Shown: one piece after another, positions 6,340 through 33,440 of the stretch
Numbering within the stretch: the stretch's first letter is position 1
How the letters are laid out: each line of letters begins with the position of its first letter
NCBI GenBank assembly: GCA_004367365.1
Contig: SESX01000008.1
Span: 1-33,440 of the forward strand
Direction of reading: 5' to 3'
From: Candidatus Acetocimmeria pyornia
GTDB taxonomy: Bacteria > Bacillota > Sulfobacillia > UBA3575
DNA length: 33,440 nt
Notes under the pieces: model-generated
What the model saw: only the letters and a program-made list of their open reading frames with translations
Databases searched by the model: none
What the model was told of the DNA's origin: nothing
Made by a program: the position numbers and the translations under genes

Positions 6340-8247
6340 CTACGATCCGGCCACCAGGCGCGGCGATGGTCTGGAGGGAGTATTGAGCACCTTCCGGGCG
6401 GCATCGGCCACAGCCTCCGGGGTGAGCCCGTAACGGGCCCTGAGTTCACCCTGCGACCCGTGGGGGATAAACTCATCCGGCAGGGCTACGATCTTCACAG
6501 GCACGTGAAGCCCACGCTGGGCCAGGTATTCCAGGACTGCGCTCCCGAAACCACCCTGTAGTACATGTTCTTCCACCGTGATAAGCTTCCCGATCGATTC
6601 GGCCAGGCGCTCGAGAAGTTCTTCATCCAGTGGCTTGACAAACCTGGCGTTGACCACAGTAGCCTTGATTCCTTCCTTTTTGAGAAGCTTGCCCGCCGCA
6701 AGGGCAACCGGGACCGCTGACCCAATGGCTACAATGGCCACGTCTTCCCCTTGGGCCAACACCTCAGCCTTGCCCATCGGGATGGGTTCAGGTTCTGCAT
6801 CGATAGGGACACCCAACCCTTCCCCGCGAGGGTAGCGGATGGCTACCGGGGCGGAGTGGGCGACAGCGGTCACCACCATGCGGACCAGCTCGTTTTCGTC
6901 CTTGGGCGCCATAACAGTCATCCCTGGAATGTGGCGCAGGTAGGTATAATCAAAAAGCCCCTGGTGGGTCTCACCGTCACTCCCGACAATGCCTCCCCGG
7001 TCCAGGGCAAATACCACCGGGAGGTTCTGGATACACACGTCGTGGACTACCTGGTCATAGGCGCGCTGTAGAAATGTCGAATAGATAGCTACAACCGGTT
7101 TCATTCCCTGGGACGCCAGTCCGGCCGCAAAGGTCACGGCATGCTGCTCAGCGATCCCGACATCAAAAAACCTTTCTGGGAACCGGCGGGCAAATTCGGC
7201 GAGCCCGGTACCGTCCGTCATCGCCGCTGTGATCGCCACCAAGGTCCGGTCCTTTTCGGCCAGTTTGCATAGCGTCTCCCCAAAAACCGAGGTGTAAGTA
7301 GGGTTGGCCTTTGACTTGTAAATCTCCCCGGTCTTGACGTTAAAGGGACCGACACCGTGGTACCGGCGCGGGTTCTCCTCTGCTGGATGGTAACCCTTAC
7401 CCTTGACGGTATAAACGTGGACCAACACCGGCCCCTTAATCTGGCGCGCGTATCTTAAAATCCGGCACAGGGCACTGATGTTGTGGCCGTCAACCGGTCC
7501 CAAGTATGTAAAACCCAGTTCCTCGAAAACAACCCCCGGGACCACCAGGTACTTCAAACTATCCTTGATCCGTTCCGCGACCTTGGCCACCGAGGGCCCG
7601 ATCCTGGGCATCTTCCGGAGCGCGGCTTCAATATCGGCCTTGACCCGGTAGTAGGTGGGGTCGGTACGGATCCGGCTCAAATAGGAAGGTAGGGCACCAA
7701 CATTACTGGCAATGGACATGCTGTTATCGTTCAAAACCACCGTCAGCTTCTTTCCGGCGTTACCGGCATTATTCAGACCTTCAAGGGCCATTCCAGCGGT
7801 AAGGGAGCCGTCGCCAATGACTGCTACCACTTCTCCCTCTTCCCCGGCTAGGTCCCTGGCCACAGCCATCCCCAGGCCCGCAGAAATGGACGTGCTGCTG
7901 TGTCCAGTTTCGAAAACATCATGAGGGCTTTCACTGCGTTTAGGAAATCCACTCAACCCACCGAACTGGCGGAGGGTGCCAAAGCTCTTGTTCCTCCCGG
8001 TGAGAATCTTATGGGCATAGGCCTGGTGGCCGACATCCCAAATGATCTTGTCTCGAGGGCTGTCATAAACCAAGTGCAGGGCGATGGTAAGTTCGACTAC
8101 CCCCAGGTTGGGGGCCAGGTGGCCACCCGTTTCGGCCACTGACGTCAGGATCCGCCGGCGCAGTTGGGCCGCCAGCCGGTTGAGTTCTTTACCTGGCAGT
8201 TTTTTCAGGTCCGCAGGTTTTTTTATGGTATCCAGTAGGTCCTTCAA
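6340..8247 (-). CDS. dxs: 1-deoxy-D-xylulose-5-phosphate synthase
   Basis: First enzyme of the MEP isoprenoid pathway: joins pyruvate and glyceraldehyde 3-phosphate using thiamine diphosphate and Mg2+. The 635-aa protein has [10 protein letters not shown] (71-80), the TPP/Mg motif [18 protein letters not shown] beginning at 145 with LNDNSMSI following, the transketolase pyrimidine-binding domain with [15 protein letters not shown], and the C-terminal transketolase domain. It starts with TTG immediately after the TAA of the upstream membrane-protein gene, with SD GGGGGAG. This adjacency means coupled translation. It supplies precursors to IspA, encoded further upstream on the same strand. Confidence 0.97.
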
Positions 8248-8847
8248 TTATCTCCCCCGCCTTTTCCTCGCCTGACCATCTCCAACAATAGTTAAGCCCG
8301 TAAGTCTCTCAAGAGAGTACAGGAGCTGTGCCACGCGGAAGGTGATCTCATTGGCCCGGTAGATGGCCAGCCCTTTTCCGGCTGCCTTTCCCCCCACGGT
8401 AAGGGCCGCGATGCCACCTACGGTAAGCATACCTAACACCGATTCACTGATACTCGAGAAAGCCACCAACCGGAGAACAATTGCCGCCCCGGCAGCACCA
8501 CTGACAGTTCCAACGATGTCACCCACAATATCATTTAAAACACTGGCCACCCTGTCGGCGTTTCTCACCAGACGGATGGCCTGCCGGGCCCCTTTCTTTT
8601 TTTTGGCAGCCATCGCGTGAAATGGGGTTTCGTCGGCAACTGCCACGGCTACCCCAACAATGTCCGCGACAACACCCACAAGTATGATCCCCAGGAGAGC
8701 CGGAAAAGCTATTTCCAGGCCCATCCGCTTCATCAGTGTTTGGGAAGGCAAGGTTACCAGAACGCCCAGAATAAAGGTGAGCGAACCCAGGACGATGCCC
8801 TGCCTAAGCCATGCTTGTACCCTTATTCGGTTATTATCATTACCCAA
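8248..8847 (-). CDS. Unknown integral membrane protein, weak DUF21/CNNM resemblance
   Basis: A 199-aa hydrophobic protein with predicted membrane segments near residues 16-34, 45-70, 110-130 and 133-155. Between them is a soluble stretch ADETPFHAMAAKKKKGARQA, then IRLVRNADRVASVLNDIVGD. That pattern (small residues, basic cluster, Leu/Arg helix, then Asn/Asp before a Gly/Ala-rich membrane helix) recalls the DUF21 domain of CNNM-type transporters, but it lacks their CBS domains. The C-terminus is basic. The TTG start at 8847 has AGGTGA upstream. Its stop codon touches the dxs start, and a 9-bp palindrome lies 25-57 bases upstream. Its role is unknown. Confidence 0.75.
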   Translation of the reverse strand: MGNDNNRIRVQAWLRQGIVLGSLTFILGVLVTLPSQTLMKRMGLEIAFPALLGIILVGVVADIVGVAVAVADETPFHAMAAKKKKGARQAIRLVRNADRVASVLNDIVGDIVGTVSGAAGAAIVLRLVAFSSISESVLGMLTVGGIAALTVGGKAAGKGLAIYRANEITFRVAQLLYSLERLTGLTIVGDGQARKRRGR

Positions 8848-8904: not shown

Positions 8905-9893
8905 CTCTTGTCCTGAATAAAGGCAAGGAAACCTTGGTTTTAGTATGTTAAAAGCCGGAGACAAAAATAAATCGAGGCAAAATTGAGGCAGATGGCAGCC
9001 CACCGGGTAAACATTGTGCCTTAGGTCCAGCAGGCTTTCCCGGGTACCGGCCTGGCGTCGCCGCCATGGTGGTTTCCCTTTAACGGTACCCCTGCTCCGT
9101 CACCGCAAGCAGGACTGGATTACCACTTAGGACACACTATAATCCCCGCCGGGCTTCGGGTCTTGATGCGAACAGCCTAGGAGTTTTCCTCAACACCCTC
9201 AAATGTTTCCTAGCCTCTTTTGCAGAATGGGTTTTGGACTCAACCGTTGCTGCTGAACCGGGCCCGCACCGCAGCAACGTCTTCTCAGCCTGTCCCCCAT
9301 CCCGCTCAAGGCAGGCTACACTGCACACAGCATGCCTACACCGCATGCAGGTTCATCCCCCAAGGCGTAATCGTATCTCGACATTGACCACGCGCTTGGG
9401 CCTCCGCGGGGGCAGGGTCAACGCCCACATGCCCTTGTGGATCGCCCCCCCCCTTAACTCCCAGCACCAACCCCCGACTGGGCGTCAGAAGCCAGCACCA
9501 GGAACTTCATCGTTGTGCCCTTGGCGGATTTTTAGGCCCGCCTTCAGAAACACCGAGTGTGACTAGGATACTGCGCCACCTGCCTTCACAGCAAAGGTCT
9601 AGATTCTAGATGCCATCCTTTCATTTCATTAAAATATTACTAGATACTATTAAACCCGAGTACTAAGTTAACGCAAGACAGTATTAAATCTTGAACATGA
9701 TTAAATTAAACGCGTCACCGGTTGACTGGTCATGCAGTATCAAGCATTACCCTGCTCATCTTGAATCAGTTGAGGCAAAACCCATTTTATCACAAGGCAT
9801 AAGCCCTCTTCAACAAACAAATCAGCTGAAATGGCCCTTGATTCGAGCAGGTACGAACGTCACGGCCAGTAGAGATTCCCGGCTGTTATGTCA
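8905..9893. other. Gene-poor intergenic region, about 1 kb
   Basis: No convincing gene is seen. It holds an inverted repeat GGGTACCG/CGGTACCC (9042-9049, 9084-9091), a run of nine C (9445-9453), and a distinctly AT-rich stretch (about 9590-9800) unlike the neighbourhood. Open frames here are short and lack good SDs or recognisable motifs. It may be decayed foreign or mobile DNA, which is inference from composition. Confidence 0.5.
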
Positions 9894-27568: not shown

Positions 27569-27609
27569 GGTAACCCAAGGGTTGGATATGACCTCCCCGT
27601 GGGGTTACC
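27569..27609. terminator. Inverted repeat between convergent genes
   Basis: GGTAACCC (27569-27576) pairs with GGGTTACC (27602-27609). It overlaps the glyA stop and lies just past the small gene. No T tract follows, so it is at best a weak terminator. Confidence 0.35.
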
Positions 27610-28846
27610 CCGGGATGGGAAACGAGCTGCAGAGCCTGCGTACCTCTTCCCGGACTTCCTTCAAAACTTCGGGCCGGTTTCGCCCCTGCAGGGTGCGGTG
27701 AATAAGTTGGGCAATGGCCCTCATCTCCCCCGTTCCCATACCCCGCGTTGTTACTGCGGGGGTCCCCAGGCGGAGACCGCTGGCCACTGACGGGGGGCGC
27801 GGGTCAAAGGGGATCGTGTTCTTGTTGGTAGCAATTCCGACACGGTCCAGGACCTCTTCTGCTTCCTTCCCGGTGATCCCAGTTTCACTCAAATCGACAA
27901 GCATCAGGTGGGTATCCGTGCCCCCGGAGACAAGCCGGTAGCCTACCTCCTGCAGTTCAGAGGCCAGGGCACGTGCGTTCTCCACCACCCTTTTCTGGTA
28001 GCTGCGAAATTCCTTGGAGAGGGCTTCTTTGAACCCAACAGCCTTGGCCGCAATGAGGTGCATTAACGGCCCACCCTGGATACCAGGAAAAACGGCCTTG
28101 TCAATACTTTTGGCCCATTCTTTGCTGCACAGAATGAATCCCCCCCTCGGGCCCCGGAGGGTCTTGTGGGTGGTGGATGTAATGAAGTGGGCATGGGGAA
28201 CAGGACTCGGGTGCAACCCGGCTGCCACCAACCCTGCAATGTGAGCCATGTCTACCATTAGGTAGGCCCCTGCTTCGTCAGCAATCTTCCGTAAAGCCCC
28301 GAAATCTATCACCCTCGGGTAGGCACTTGCTCCGGCCACCATCAGCCTGGGCGCGTGCTCCATGGCCAACCGGTGCACCTGGTCGTAATCAATGGTTTCG
28401 TCCTCCGGCCTAACCCCGTAGGAGACAAAATTGAAATATGTTCCTGATAGATTGACCCTGCTCCCATGGGTCAGGTGACCGCCGTGGGTTAAGTCCATGC
28501 CCAGTACCGTATCACCCGGTTTGAGAACCGCGAAGTAAACCGCCGTGTTGGCCTGACTCCCGGAATGGGGCTGAACATTGGCGTGTTCCGCCCCAAAGAG
28601 GCGGCAGGCCCTTTCCCGGGCCAATTCCTCCACCACGTCTACATACTGGCACCCACCGTAATACCGCTTCCCCGGGTACCCTTCAGCGTACTTGTTGGTC
28701 AGGGGAGTACCGGCAGCAGCCTGTACCGCACCACTGGCAAAATTCTCGGAAGCAATCAACTCCAGGGTCTGCTGCTGCCGCCGCCCCTCGTTTTCGATGG
28801 CTTCGTACACCTCGGGGTCAACTTCTTTAAGCAACATTCCAGCCAT
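27605..28846 (-). CDS. glyA: Serine hydroxymethyltransferase
   Basis: PLP enzyme interconverting serine and glycine with transfer of a one-carbon unit to tetrahydrofolate. 413 aa; [40 protein letters not shown] and the PLP-lysine motif [14 protein letters not shown] are all present. The ATG at 28846 has GGAGGAGG directly upstream. It lies 88 bp after lpdA on the same strand. Together with lpdA and the lipoate genes it suggests glycine/one-carbon metabolism, though no gcv gene is in the window. Confidence 0.97.
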
Positions 28847-28934: not shown

Positions 28935-30329
28935 CTACCCTTTCAGCATGTGGATCGGCTCTCCCAATACCCCGTGGGCTGCTTCCATCAAGGCCTCAGC
29001 CCTGGTTGGATGAGCATGGATGGTCCGCGCCAGGTCTCGCGCCTTGAGCCCCAGGTTAACTGCCAGTGCCCCTTCATGGATGAGTTCTGTACCATGGGCC
29101 CCCAGGATGTGTACCCCCAACACAGGGCCGTCGACACCAGCACTGATTATTTTCACCAGACCCTCGGTCTCACCACCGGCTACTGCACGGCCGTTGGCAC
29201 TAAAGGCAAATTTACTTACCACCGGGTTTAACCCCTTGGCCCGAGCCTCTTCTTCGGTATCTCCGACCCCGGCAAGCTCGGGCAGGGTATAAACGCAAGC
29301 CGGAACGGCACGGTAGTCCATTTCCTCATCTCCGCCGAGGGCATTTTCCACCGCAACCAAAGCCTCAGCCGAAGCCACGTGGGCCAGAAGGGGACCGCCC
29401 ACCACGTCTCCGGCAGCAAAAATGCCTGGTGCGCTGGTGCGCATGCCCCGGTCCACTCTGATACCGTGACGCGGGTCGTATTGCACCCCAGCCTCTTCCA
29501 GGTTCAGCCCCCCAAAGTCGGGCGCCCTCCCTGCGGCCACCAGAACCAGGTCGGCAGCAACCTCAAGGGTTTGTTGCCCCTTCTTGTACTGGACAACCTT
29601 GCCTCCATCACGCTCCTCAATGCAATCTACCACGGCCCCAGTCACCAGTTCTATCCCCAGGCGCCGCAGCGAAGGCCGCAAGCGGCGCACCATTTCTGCA
29701 TCCATCCCCTGGAGGACCTGCGACAGCATCTCGACCACCGTCACAGTACTTCCCAGGGCACCGAAAAGGGAGGCCATTTCCAGCCCGATCACACCGCCCC
29801 CAATGATGACGGCCCTCGAAGGGGGTTCGGTCAGGTCAAGGGCTTCTTCGCTGGTGATGACTCCAGCCTGTTCCACGCCGGGAATCGGAGGTTTCACGGG
29901 ACGGGACCCCGTGGCCAGGAGAATGTTCTTCGCCTCCAAGGTACACTGCCCCCCATCCCGGAGGCTGACCTCGACCTTCCCCCCTGCTACAGACGAGGCC
30001 CGCCCCAACACCAACTCGACCCGGCGGCCGCGCAAGAGGCGTTCTACCCCGTCGACCAGCCGCTGAACCACGCGGTCCTTACGCTCAACGGCCTTTCCGT
30101 AGTCAAAGGTCACGTCCTTGACCTCAATCCCAAAATCGGAAGCATTCTTGATCCTTAGCCAGAGCTCGGCGCCAGCGAGAAGGGCCTTAGTCGGTATGCA
30201 GCCGCTGTTCAGACAGGTGCCACCGACCCTTTTCTCCTCGACCAGGGCCACAGCTGCGCCCTTTTGGGCTGCATGCAGGGCGGCCACATACCCGGCAGGA
30301 CCACCGCCCACCACAACCAAATCAAACAC
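28935..30329 (-). CDS. lpdA: Dihydrolipoyl dehydrogenase
   Basis: FAD enzyme that reoxidises dihydrolipoamide on lipoylated proteins with NAD+. About 464 aa: FAD motif VVVGGGPAGYVAALHA, redox disulfide GGTCLNSGCIPTK (C39 and C44), NAD motif VIIGGGVIGLEMA, APGIFAAGDVVGG, and the C-terminal HAHPTRAEALMEAAHG with the catalytic His. The GTG at 30329 has GGGGGG seven bases upstream and is chosen over GTG at 30344. A 411-bp leader with a terminator-like hairpin separates it from the lipoate ligase gene. Confidence 0.95.
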   Translation of the reverse strand: MFDLVVVGGGPAGYVAALHAAQKGAAVALVEEKRVGGTCLNSGCIPTKALLAGAELWLRIKNASDFGIEVKDVTFDYGKAVERKDRVVQRLVDGVERLLRGRRVELVLGRASSVAGGKVEVSLRDGGQCTLEAKNILLATGSRPVKPPIPGVEQAGVITSEEALDLTEPPSRAVIIGGGVIGLEMASLFGALGSTVTVVEMLSQVLQGMDAEMVRRLRPSLRRLGIELVTGAVVDCIEERDGGKVVQYKKGQQTLEVAADLVLVAAGRAPDFGGLNLEEAGVQYDPRHGIRVDRGMRTSAPGIFAAGDVVGGPLLAHVASAEALVAVENALGGDEEMDYRAVPACVYTLPELAGVGDTEEEARAKGLNPVVSKFAFSANGRAVAGGETEGLVKIISAGVDGPVLGVHILGAHGTELIHEGALAVNLGLKARDLARTIHAHPTRAEALMEAAHGVLGEPIHMLKG

Positions 30330-30740
30330 CTCTCTACCCCCCACTCGACAACTTCTACCAATACTGGTACCTGGTTTTGCCGAAGCCTGTCTCCTTAAGG
30401 CATATTTTCCAAATGGTTCGCCCTTCCCTGGTTAATATCCTGCCCAAAGGGGCCCAGGGACAAAAATAACGGGTAAGAGTCCCCAAGAAACGTTCGGAAC
30501 CCTTACCCGTGACCCTGAAGTTAGTGCAGAAATAACTTGGAAAACAAGGCCAGTTTGCGACGCCCGTGTCATCCCTCCCTACTGGCCCTGAAAAAAGTGC
30601 TATTCGGGCATAAGCCAGTAAGGTAAAGAAACAACCCTGAAAAAAGACCGCCTTCCTACATCTTTCTGGCTGAGAAGTGTTTCCCGTCTGGTCAAACATT
30701 CAGTTGAAAAGCATTTTTTTTTCGAATTCATACCTCTTCA
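30330..30740. other. Long intergenic/leader region upstream of lpdA
   Basis: 411 bp between lplA and lpdA. It holds the terminator hairpin (30462-30510), an inverted repeat TACTGGC/GCCAGTA at about 30580-30630, and CTTTTTTCAGG twice on the - strand. Short ORFs in it are not convincing. A promoter for lpdA is expected but was not identified. Confidence 0.5.
30462..30510 (-). terminator. Terminator-like hairpin between lplA and lpdA
   Basis: ACGGGTAAG (30469-30477) and CTTACCCGT (30502-30510) form a perfect 9-bp stem; on the - strand TATTTTTG follows. It probably ends the lipoate-cluster transcript, or attenuates read-through into lpdA, since it lies 230 bp past the lplA stop. Confidence 0.65.
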
Positions 30741-31607
30741 TTACCTCTTGCGGTTCCAAGTATCACTACCGTACTTGCCCGCAGCCAGCCTGGCGGCAAG
30801 ATCCTCCTCTTCCCGGGTAAGGACACCCGGTACAGCACTGTACCCGAGGGCTTTTTCAAACCCAAGGACCATGGCCTCCACCACCTGGTCGAAGGAAGGT
30901 AGATTACCCACTCCCAGCACCTCCCGGAGGGACGTGGCCCGTTTCTCCAAAACCCTCGCCAGGCGCTCACGCGCCCTCCCTCCCGGCACAGCGAGAACCT
31001 CCAACAGGCAGCCCACGTCAAAATCAAGCAGGATTGAACCATGCTGCAGGATCACCCCGTCCCTCCTGGTCTGGGCACTGCCGACAATCTTCTTCCCCCC
31101 CACCACCACCTCGTACCAGGAAGGGGCGTCAAAACAGGCAGCCGACGACCGCTGCCCAATGAGAGGACCAAGATCCTGGTGGCCGGAGGCAACCATGTCT
31201 GCCGGAACCCCGAGCCGTCGAAAACCCTCAATCAATCCCTTACTTAACTCCCGGTAGGTTTCCAACACCGACCCCGGCAGGTCGGCCTCAGAGATGACAA
31301 TACTGTAGGTAACCTCATCCGCATGCAACACCGCCCGCCCCCCGGTTGGGCGCCGTACCCAGCCCACACCAAGTTTCCGGCACCGGTCCAGGTCAACCTC
31401 ACCCGCCAGGCTCTGAAAGTACCCGATGGACACCGCGGGTGGTTTCCACCCGTAAAAACGAAGGGTTGGGGGTGCCCCCTCCCGGTGCGCGGAGCTAACC
31501 AGTATCGCTTCGTCGATGGCCATATTGGTGGACGCATCACTGTAACCGGTCTTGAGAATCCTCATCATCCTGCTCATTGTTTCACTACCACCTAAAAGCC
31601 CGACCAC
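30741..31607 (-). CDS. lplA: Lipoate-protein ligase (LplA/sLpl type)
   Basis: Attaches lipoate or octanoate to lysines of lipoyl domains via acyl-AMP. 288 aa with TNMAIDEAIL, the signature RRPTGGRAVLHADEVTYSIV, KIVGSAQTRRDGVILQHGSILLD (catalytic Lys segment, cited in part) and a C-terminal accessory domain ending in KYGSDTWN, so catalytic and accessory parts are fused. The GTG at 31607 has GGAAGGA upstream; ATG at 31577 is the homology-favoured alternative. It lies 87 bp after the first radical-SAM gene; with two radical-SAM genes it fits the sLpl-LipS1-LipS2 lipoate assembly system, where the ligase supplies octanoylated carrier. Confidence 0.88.
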   Translation of the reverse strand: MVGLLGGSETMSRMMRILKTGYSDASTNMAIDEAILVSSAHREGAPPTLRFYGWKPPAVSIGYFQSLAGEVDLDRCRKLGVGWVRRPTGGRAVLHADEVTYSIVISEADLPGSVLETYRELSKGLIEGFRRLGVPADMVASGHQDLGPLIGQRSSAACFDAPSWYEVVVGGKKIVGSAQTRRDGVILQHGSILLDFDVGCLLEVLAVPGGRARERLARVLEKRATSLREVLGVGNLPSFDQVVEAMVLGFEKALGYSAVPGVLTREEEDLAARLAAGKYGSDTWNRKR

Positions 31608-31694
31608 AGCTATTCCTTCCCTAAGCCGGGACAGGCCCCGTTCGGTCGCCTGCAGGCCTGGCCCGGCACAGGCTTTTGCTCCTAGGAATCTGGA

Positions 31695-32654
31695 TTAGAA
31701 CCGGGTGCCAACAAGAAGCACCCTCAGGGCTTCTGCCACCTCTTCCCCTGTCAAGGGGCGCGGGTAGTTATAGATGGGTCCCCGCGGGCTTTCATTGTAG
31801 TACGGGCGGTTGCAGTCAGGGCAGCCCGTAGTTTGAAAGGCCTCCCCGGTACCCAGGAGGTGTGCCAGTTTATCTGGTTTCAACCCGAAGGAAACCAGTC
31901 TCCCGTTTTCGAACTGAAAACCCCCAAGACCCTGATGCCCGTGGGCCAGCAGGAAATGGCCGGCTTGAATGCGACGGTAAGAGTCAAGGGGAGGCTGCGG
32001 CCGGTCTTCCCAGGCGGTCCCACGGACCGGCGTAAAGGCGAAAAGGCCCACCCTCACCCCCATTTCCACCAGGGCACCAATCGTCCGGACCATCTCTTCC
32101 TCGCTTTCCCCCAGGCCAACGATGAGATGGGTGCTCACCCGGCCCGGATAGAGCCTGGCCGCCTCTTGCAGCAGGTGCCATTTCCTGTGCCAGGACCCAC
32201 CCTTGCACCGGCGGTACACCCGGGCAGAAGCCGCGTCAAGGGGCAGCCCGATCCTGTCCACCCCCCACTTGAAGACCTCGGCCAGCTCCTTGAGGTCCTC
32301 CACGTCAACCGACAAACAGCAAGGTATATCACTCAGGGACCGCAGTTTTTTTACCATTTCCCGGCTGGCTGCGCGGGACTCCCTCTCCTTCACCACCTGG
32401 ATACAGGCCCGCTTCAGGTCACCGGTCCGGTACCTGGAGGCGATCCTTTCCGCAGTTATACCGGGCTCGGACTCCGGCCAGGTCACCCTGGACAAGAGGT
32501 TGGCCTGAGCCTCACTGTTCCTCGCCTGGGGACAAAAACTACAATCCATCATACACCTTCGGCCCACCATCAGGTAAGCCGTGGTTGGTCTGACTTCGGT
32601 TCTGCTCTTCCGCAATCCCAACACCGAGAGGGTACCTGTGGATACTCTGACCAT
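31695..32654 (-). CDS. Radical-SAM protein, candidate LipS1/LipS2-type lipoyl synthase subunit
   Basis: A 319-aa radical-SAM enzyme of the biotin/lipoyl synthase-like type. The cluster motif GRRCMMDCSFC gives C34, C38 and C41. A TIM-barrel core follows (IGLPLDAASARVYRRC, STHLIVGLGESEEEMVRTI), then a C-terminal GCPDCNRPYYNE segment whose cysteines could bind an auxiliary cluster. It lacks classical LipA features such as the N-terminal CX4CX5C and C-terminal RSSY. The ATG has AGGAG overlapping the stop of the upstream radical-SAM gene, 10 bp away, so the pair is coupled. Two adjacent radical-SAM genes beside a lipoate ligase fit the LipS1/LipS2 system; which of the two this is cannot be decided here. 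Confidence 0.72.
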   Translation of the reverse strand: MVRVSTGTLSVLGLRKSRTEVRPTTAYLMVGRRCMMDCSFCPQARNSEAQANLLSRVTWPESEPGITAERIASRYRTGDLKRACIQVVKERESRAASREMVKKLRSLSDIPCCLSVDVEDLKELAEVFKWGVDRIGLPLDAASARVYRRCKGGSWHRKWHLLQEAARLYPGRVSTHLIVGLGESEEEMVRTIGALVEMGVRVGLFAFTPVRGTAWEDRPQPPLDSYRRIQAGHFLLAHGHQGLGGFQFENGRLVSFGLKPDKLAHLLGTGEAFQTTGCPDCNRPYYNESPRGPIYNYPRPLTGEEVAEALRVLLVGTRF

Positions 32655-32664
32655 AAAACCACTC

Positions 32665-33440
32665 CTAGAAAACGCAACACTCCTCGGCCGTCACCACAGA
32701 AAGACCGTACCGGACTGCAAGACGGCGTGCAGGCAAGGTCGGTTGGACGATCCCGTTCAGACCACACCTCACCGCCAGCTGGTCCACCGCCCTCCGGTAG
32801 CTTCCACCTGGCCGCATGCAGCCAAGCAGGATGGGCACCCGCGGGAGGGTTTTCCGTACCCACTGAAAGAAATCGCCAACCTGGTCCAGGGATGGGGGGC
32901 GGCAGTCCTGGTACTTTGTCCCCCGGGTGGGGGTGAAAATAATGAGCACCAGGGTTTCCAGGCCGATTTCCTTGAGGGTCTCGACCGCCTCGTACTCCCC
33001 GTGGATCCTGCCACGCCACAATCCCACGCAAAGATGTGGAACCACCTGGAGGTGCTCCCGCAGGCACCGGTAAGACCGGGTGTAATCCTCGCCGGTAACC
33101 GAAAGGCCGGTGACCTCTTGAATGGTGGTGGTATCGGTTACAAAGTCAAAGGAAACCCTCTCGGCATAAGGGGACAGGAACCTGGCCTCAGCCTCTCCCA
33201 CCAGGCCCACGTGGAGGTTAAGCCTGCCCTTTTCCGCCAGGGCCGCGATGGTGTCCTGGGCCTGGAGAAGGGGTATCCGTCCCTGCCGGTCACAACCACC
33301 ACTAACCAGAAAGCTCGTAACTCCTTCCCCTACAAGGCCCTTCATGGCTGCCTTCGGCGAGGACATTCCCCGCAGGTAATAACCACCGCAGTGGGCACAG
33401 TTCAAGGAGCTCCTCTGGCCCGTAACCGTCACTGGAATGG
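32665..33440 (-). CDS. Radical-SAM protein, second candidate LipS1/LipS2 subunit (5' end outside window)
   Basis: The reading frame is open to the window edge. An in-frame GTG at 33432 lies inside PVTVTG, just before the cluster motif, so the true start is outside. The motif reads SSLNCAHCGGYYL: two cysteines are in place, but the first of the CX3CX2C set is Ser. The barrel continues (LVSGGCDRQGRIPLL, NLHVGLVGEAEARFL, FDFVTDTTT), with GLETLVLIIFTPTRGTKYQD, GCMRPGG and the C-terminal EECCVF. Very similar in layout to its neighbour, it probably forms a heteromeric lipoyl synthase with it. Confidence 0.7.
   Translation of the reverse strand, partial: IPVTVTGQRSSLNCAHCGGYYLRGMSSPKAAMKGLVGEGVTSFLVSGGCDRQGRIPLLQAQDTIAALAEKGRLNLHVGLVGEAEARFLSPYAERVSFDFVTDTTTIQEVTGLSVTGEDYTRSYRCLREHLQVVPHLCVGLWRGRIHGEYEAVETLKEIGLETLVLIIFTPTRGTKYQDCRPPSLDQVGDFFQWVRKTLPRVPILLGCMRPGGSYRRAVDQLAVRCGLNGIVQPTLPARRLAVRYGLSVVTAEECCVF

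Follow-up and report, generated by a model that had tools for sequence, protein, structure and literature searches.

Our analysis suggests that two lipoate assembly lines, each with its own customer, are present in one bacterium of an uncultured Bacillota lineage. The window, a 33,440-nucleotide stretch of DNA, corresponds to the entire contig C306 of a genome (G000) of 2.75 Mb in 327 contigs, which is estimated to be 99.8% complete and 3.55% contaminated. Its lipS1-lipS2-lipM-lpd-glyA cluster is apparently the second half of a glycine-cleavage operon, the first half of which is located on contig C157. In the full explanation, LipM, LipS2 and LipS1 would act in that order on the GcvH of the divided operon, and a LipB-LipA set on contig C295 would serve an E2 and a GcvH-like protein; we give this explanation a probability of about 80%. 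The sequences themselves show the gene identities, the catalytic residues, the gene order of relatives and the pattern of presence and absence; the reactions, the physical join of C157 and C306 and the division of clients are inferred.

The five genes follow one another on the minus strand (Table 1) with spacings of 10, 87, 396 and 88 bp in the order lipS1 to glyA. The initial annotation had placed two radical-SAM genes 10 bp apart with lpd and glyA downstream on the same strand, and this arrangement was confirmed, with profile matches for lpd and glyA. It had also placed the pair directly upstream of a lipoate-protein ligase, of which the adjacency was upheld (87 bp) but not the ligase identity, as the gene is LipM-type. 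The 5' end of lipS1 is cut because the window comprises the entire contig. The 396-bp gap between lipM and lpd (window 30345-30740) may interrupt the operon transcript. An open reading frame of 114 residues was observed in this gap, which matched no NCBIfam family, and an Rfam scan of the gap found no RNA element. Near the cluster, the terminator scan remained below the shuffle expectation and the promoter scan returned weak candidates only.

Table 1. Predicted features of the cluster, in window coordinates
Feature	Position	Strand	Description
lipS1	32665..33438	-	radical-SAM lipoyl synthase subunit, C6 sulfur; 5' end cut (~20 codons absent)
lipS1 variant codon AGC (Ser10 of fragment)	33409..33411	-	position of the first Cys of radical-SAM CX3CX2C
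lipS2	31695..32654	-	radical-SAM lipoyl synthase subunit, C8 sulfur; NF053743
lipM-type octanoyl-ACP:GcvH octanoyltransferase	30741..31607	-	PF21948, PF03099/PF21948 fold; Cys158 codon 31134-31136
lpd, dihydrolipoyl dehydrogenase (L-protein/E3)	28935..30344	-	TIGR01350, 519.7 bits vs cut-off 408.8
glyA, serine hydroxymethyltransferase	27605..28846	-	NF000586, 637.4 bits vs cut-off 335

Both radical-SAM proteins scored above curated NCBIfam equivalog cut-offs, LipS1 with NF053742 (246.5 bits against 230, despite its 5' truncation) and LipS2 with NF053743 (376.5 bits against 270); both scores are well outside what chance would give. LipS2 reached 22 bits with the LipA model TIGR00510 (cut-off 310) and 49 bits with the BioB model, far under its cut-off, while LipS1 had no match to LipA. 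In a tree, the LipS2 clade was set apart from LipA with 100% support. By the profile assignments the pair is LipS1 and LipS2, as had been proposed at the outset along with the lack of classical LipA motifs in either protein. Searches of the PDB with both sequences returned no solved-structure relatives.

The cluster ligands of the Thermococcus kodakarensis proteins have been identified by mutation as C27/C31/C34, C230, C276, C277 and probably H159 in LipS1, and as C39/C43/C46, C85, C276, C279 and H178 in LipS2 (Neti et al.; PMC9585515). Our alignment of 82 LipS2 and 76 LipS1 sequences shows that the corresponding LipS2 residues C34, C38, C41, C84, C278, C281 and H176 are invariant (81/81). The auxiliary LipS1 ligands Cys207, Cys254, Cys255 and His135, equivalent to C230, C276, C277 and H159, were also found to be invariant. 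All published ligands are kept in the window pair except the first radical-SAM cysteine of LipS1.

As assembled, the LipS1 motif reads S-X3-C-X2-C, where Ser10 occupies a position that is cysteine in 72 of the 73 aligned LipS1 proteins; no serine was seen there in any additional relative whose motif could be read. The AGC codon is one base away from TGC and lies 29 nt from the contig end. Ser10 would be either an assembly error or an inactivating change and, if it is real, LipS1 should be inactive. We regard it as unlikely that the LipS1/S2 module is decaying, such that the LipA of C295 now makes both lipoyl-GcvH and lipoyl-E2 with LipM still supplying octanoyl-GcvH. Apart from Ser10 itself, such decay would agree with the presence of a LipA above its cut-off in this genome and with same-class relatives that pair LipM with LipA alone, but the change is a single base near the contig end, the frame of the LipS1 fragment is otherwise open, and the LipS1 auxiliary ligands and all LipS2 ligands are intact.

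The placement of the cluster in a glycine-cleavage operon is based on a survey of 80 named LipS2 loci. In Bacillota, the pattern seen in most relatives was gcvT-gcvH-gcvPA-gcvPB-lipS1-lipS2-lipM-lpd, sometimes with glyA after it. Directly upstream of lipS2, lipS1 was found in 67/80 loci, and lipM was directly downstream or fused in 51/80; gcv genes on the same strand were present in 56/80 and lpd in 44/80, while a lipA, lipB or E2 gene was observed at none of the 80. In loci of related genomes, gcvP lies within 1.5 kb of LipS1 in 21 of 30. The contiguity of gcv genes with lipS1 is thus present in relatives, whereas here gcvPB and lipS1 each run off contig ends. The gcvT-gcvH-gcvPA-gcvPB genes of G000 form the right end of C157, where the gcvPB fragment has 371 codons and is 73% identical to that of a relative over residues 1-354 of 483. 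Because gcvPB runs off C157 and no second copy was found in the G000 genome, C157 and C306 most likely join over a few hundred absent bases. Upstream of gcvT there is a glycine riboswitch (L010:8348-8470; 54 bits against 32), and the GcvH of this operon keeps the lipoyl lysine within ESVKTLSD. The earlier proposal of GcvH as the likely target is supported both by the synteny of the relatives' operons and by these genes of the same genome, which also supply the gcvH and gcvP to be looked for outside the window.

In the proposed mechanism, LipM would transfer octanoate from octanoyl-ACP through a thioester on Cys158 to the lipoyl lysine of GcvH, where LipS2 would insert sulfur at C8 and LipS1 would then insert sulfur at C6 to give lipoyl-GcvH. 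Lpd would reoxidise lipoyl-GcvH, and GlyA would draw on the same one-carbon pool. Two related genomes that encode LipA and no LipS1/S2 (G010 and G034) carry the operon gcvT-gcvH-gcvPA-gcvPB-lipM-lpd-glyA, where gcvPB adjoins lipM and the only difference is the missing lipS1-lipS2. As LipS1/S2 and LipA swap while LipM and the client stay constant, this comparison of gene content is strong indirect evidence that LipS1/S2 would perform the job of LipA on LipM-octanoylated GcvH.

LipA is absent from the window and present in the rest of the genome. Contig C295 encodes an LplA-like ligase, E1 alpha, E1 beta, an AcoX-like protein, E2, LipB, LipA, a GcvH-like protein and a GlcD-like oxidase. LipB scored 171 bits against a cut-off of 84 and LipA 363 bits against 310, and the E2 is a pyruvate/acetoin-type dehydrogenase component. 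The most likely clients of the ligase, LipB and LipA would be the adjacent E2 and the GcvH-like protein, which keeps the lipoyl lysine and scores under the GcvH cut-off. Apart from the E2 and the two GcvH-type proteins, the only lipoyl-type carriers detected in the genome were two more matches to a biotin/lipoyl domain, and we take one of these to be a biotin carrier. No LipL-like amidotransferase was found in the genome by PF21948 or PF03099. The initial statement that this organism makes lipoate by the LipS route is therefore supported in part, with GcvH as the likely target, and is incomplete, since lipA, lipB and the LplA-like ligase are also encoded. A lipA-lipB pair elsewhere in the genome, combined with unrelated partners for lipS1 and lipS2, had been named as evidence against that statement; the pair exists, but the partners are not unrelated because they are glycine-cleavage genes. 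The full LipB-LipA set could in principle lipoylate GcvH as well.

Two further features were noticed on C295. The E2 (L009:11962-13563) carries a fused C-terminal CMD/AhpD-type domain with CxxC, and the fusion is possibly a lipoyl-coupled peroxidase. Right after lipB-lipA (L009:15676-18105), the GcvH-like gene is followed by those of the GlcD-like FAD oxidase and an Fe-S protein, and this set is a possible further lipoate-linked oxidation system.

Within the class, 61 genomes were surveyed for the two pathways. LipS1/S2 was found in 35, LipA in 29, both in 8 and neither in 5, where one dual genome (G024) was counted through the LipS2 search as its lipS1 lies beyond the contig end. A tendency towards mutual exclusion of LipS and LipA was observed (Fisher p = 8e-6; median 8e-5 when each family was represented by a single genome, the only way in which kinship was handled), and LipA co-occurs with E2 (p = 5e-7, 61 genomes). 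An E2 was observed in 18/21 LipA-only, 7/8 dual and 6/27 LipS-only genomes. By hand count, 23 of the 25 genomes with both lipA and E2 have the two genes no more than 7.5 kb apart, and none of 13 has a lipS gene within 10 kb of E2. Wherever the lipA region of a dual genome was inspected, LipA adjoins E2 or E1 genes, while the LipS neighbours are gcv genes or lipM-lpd. The exceptions are G031 and G048, in which LipS is found beside a GcvH-like protein and two ligase-type genes.

That LipS1/S2 serve every lipoylated protein, with the LipA set of C295 as a backup or limited to certain conditions, seems quite unlikely to us. The six LipS-only relatives with an E2 would fit such a broad role, as would the action of LipS1/S2 on peptide substrates in vitro (PMC9585515), which leaves an intrinsic client specificity unproven; however, LipA follows E2 across genomes and adjoins its genes, and LipS genes never do. 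We lean slightly towards the stricter form of the two-line reading, in which LipM with LipS1/S2 would act only on GcvH and LipB (with the LplA-like ligase) and LipA only on E2, and lipS1-lipS2 would be a removable cassette of the gcv operon, exchanged with LipA within the class. In the LipS-only genome G027, a weak LplA-B_cat protein was observed to adjoin the E2 gene directly (L157, contig C24) and might relay from GcvH to E2 in the manner of LipL.

It is highly unlikely that the LipA pathway represents contamination of the bin and that the organism uses LipS1/S2 alone. The genome-wide estimate of 3.55% and the difference in GC content (0.528 in C295, 0.573 in the window) would allow for it, but both systems are found in seven further related genomes, and the normalised tetranucleotide profile of C295 matches that of the window with a correlation of 0.92, against 0.31-0.80 for other genomes. 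Contamination is unlikely because of this match.

The third gene was proposed initially to encode an sLpl-type ligase, and the sequence evidence points instead to a LipM-type octanoyltransferase. The protein has 288 residues, matches PF21948 with 137 bits across residues 24-250, reached 134 bits with NCBIfam lipoate-ligase models against a cut-off of 480, and gave no match to a Lip_prot_lig_C or LplB domain in the profile search. Its motif ACFDAPSWYE holds Cys158, which we take to be the nucleophile of LipM, equivalent to Cys150 of the B. subtilis enzyme. Cys158, Lys173 and His189 are conserved in 53/53 lipS2-linked homologues. In a tree of 81 PF03099-fold proteins, which included no characterised LipM, the window protein is placed in the LipM clade (95% SH-aLRT) that joins lipS-linked LipM proteins with those of LipA genomes. 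Outside this clade are the ligases of GcvH-like/sLpl loci (98%), an LplA-type branch (97%) and LipB (100%). LipM and LipB are octanoyltransferases that have an active-site cysteine and lack the small domain of the ligases (PMC6067878, PMC7253636). A PDB search with the third gene matched only ligases, for example T. acidophilum LplA, and gives little indication of function, since none of the matched entries was named LipM; a search of plasmid sequences for a named LipM reference gave only distant, generically named matches. An sLpl/LplA ligase was rejected, as the protein groups apart from ligases and carries the LipM cysteine motif. That an sLpl-type ligase attaches free octanoate to GcvH before LipS1/S2 insert sulfur is hardly credible, for although clusters of this kind have been demonstrated in sulfur oxidisers (PMC10332631) and the two enzyme types share one fold and similar length, the motif, the clade and the low ligase score all disagree, and the sLpl-like proteins of G031, G048 and G017 form their own 98% branch without the motif.

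The chemistry of LipS1/S2 and its order of sulfur addition are known, as are the location of bacterial LipS1/S2 near the glycine-cleavage H protein and the rarity of an E2 among archaea that have LipS1/S2 (PMC9585515). Similar to T. kodakarensis, both radical-SAM subunits are present here with the same ligands except Ser10; unlike it, the partner is LipM, with a single domain, in place of an LplA/LplB ligase, the genes are apparently part of a complete gcv operon and LipA is also in the genome (PMC9585515). The sLpl(AB)-LipS1/S2 systems of sulfur oxidisers share the sulfur-insertion pair and a PF03099-fold acyl-attaching enzyme, which there is a ligase with LbpA as client and here a LipM transferase with GcvH as the predicted client; no adjacent lipT-type gene was seen here, and lpd is present instead (PMC10332631). 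LipS2 proteins of the GcvH-like/sLpl loci are only ~28% identical. In B. subtilis, LipM octanoylates GcvH from octanoyl-ACP, as predicted here, but there LipA inserts the sulfur, a step for which LipS1/S2 would be used here, and no LipL-like amidotransferase was found here (PMC7253636, PMC6067878). LipM and LipS1/S2 co-occur in Schekmanbacteria, Synergistota and Thermotogota, the same combination as here, where it is found in Bacillota, apparently inside a gcv operon and together with a separate LipB-LipA set (PMC10332631). LipM is rarely found with LipB, and LipA and LipS1/S2 can coexist; Tanabe et al. proposed as the reason that either system modifies its own clients alone, and asked for this to be tested (PMC10332631). 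This genome and seven relatives provide a clean Bacillota case in which the two pathways are apparently linked on the DNA to different clients, and there are relatives that differ by just the presence or absence of lipS1-lipS2 in an otherwise conserved gcv operon. To previous work we add the corrected ligase call, a dual-line genome whose two lines are apparently linked on the DNA to different clients, the cassette comparison and gene fusions.

LipS2 and LipM were found as single proteins at five loci (L021, L028, L052, L063 and L077) from Symbiobacterium and relatives. In addition, a single open frame of 740 aa in G060 (L106) encodes LipS1 fused to LipS2 and contains the radical-SAM motifs of both. 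We found no mention of either fusion in the cited literature. These gene fusions suggest that the intermediate may be passed along within one complex. A lipS1-lipS2-lipM cluster was also observed in Clostridioides difficile CD160 (L084), where LipM is divergent.

Elsewhere in the window, an OLE RNA (Rfam RF01071, 496 bits) was found at 8976-9595 on the minus strand. It is followed on the same strand by a gene (8248-8847) whose 199-aa product, an OapA candidate, matches CNNM weakly, and then by dxs (6340-8247, minus strand).
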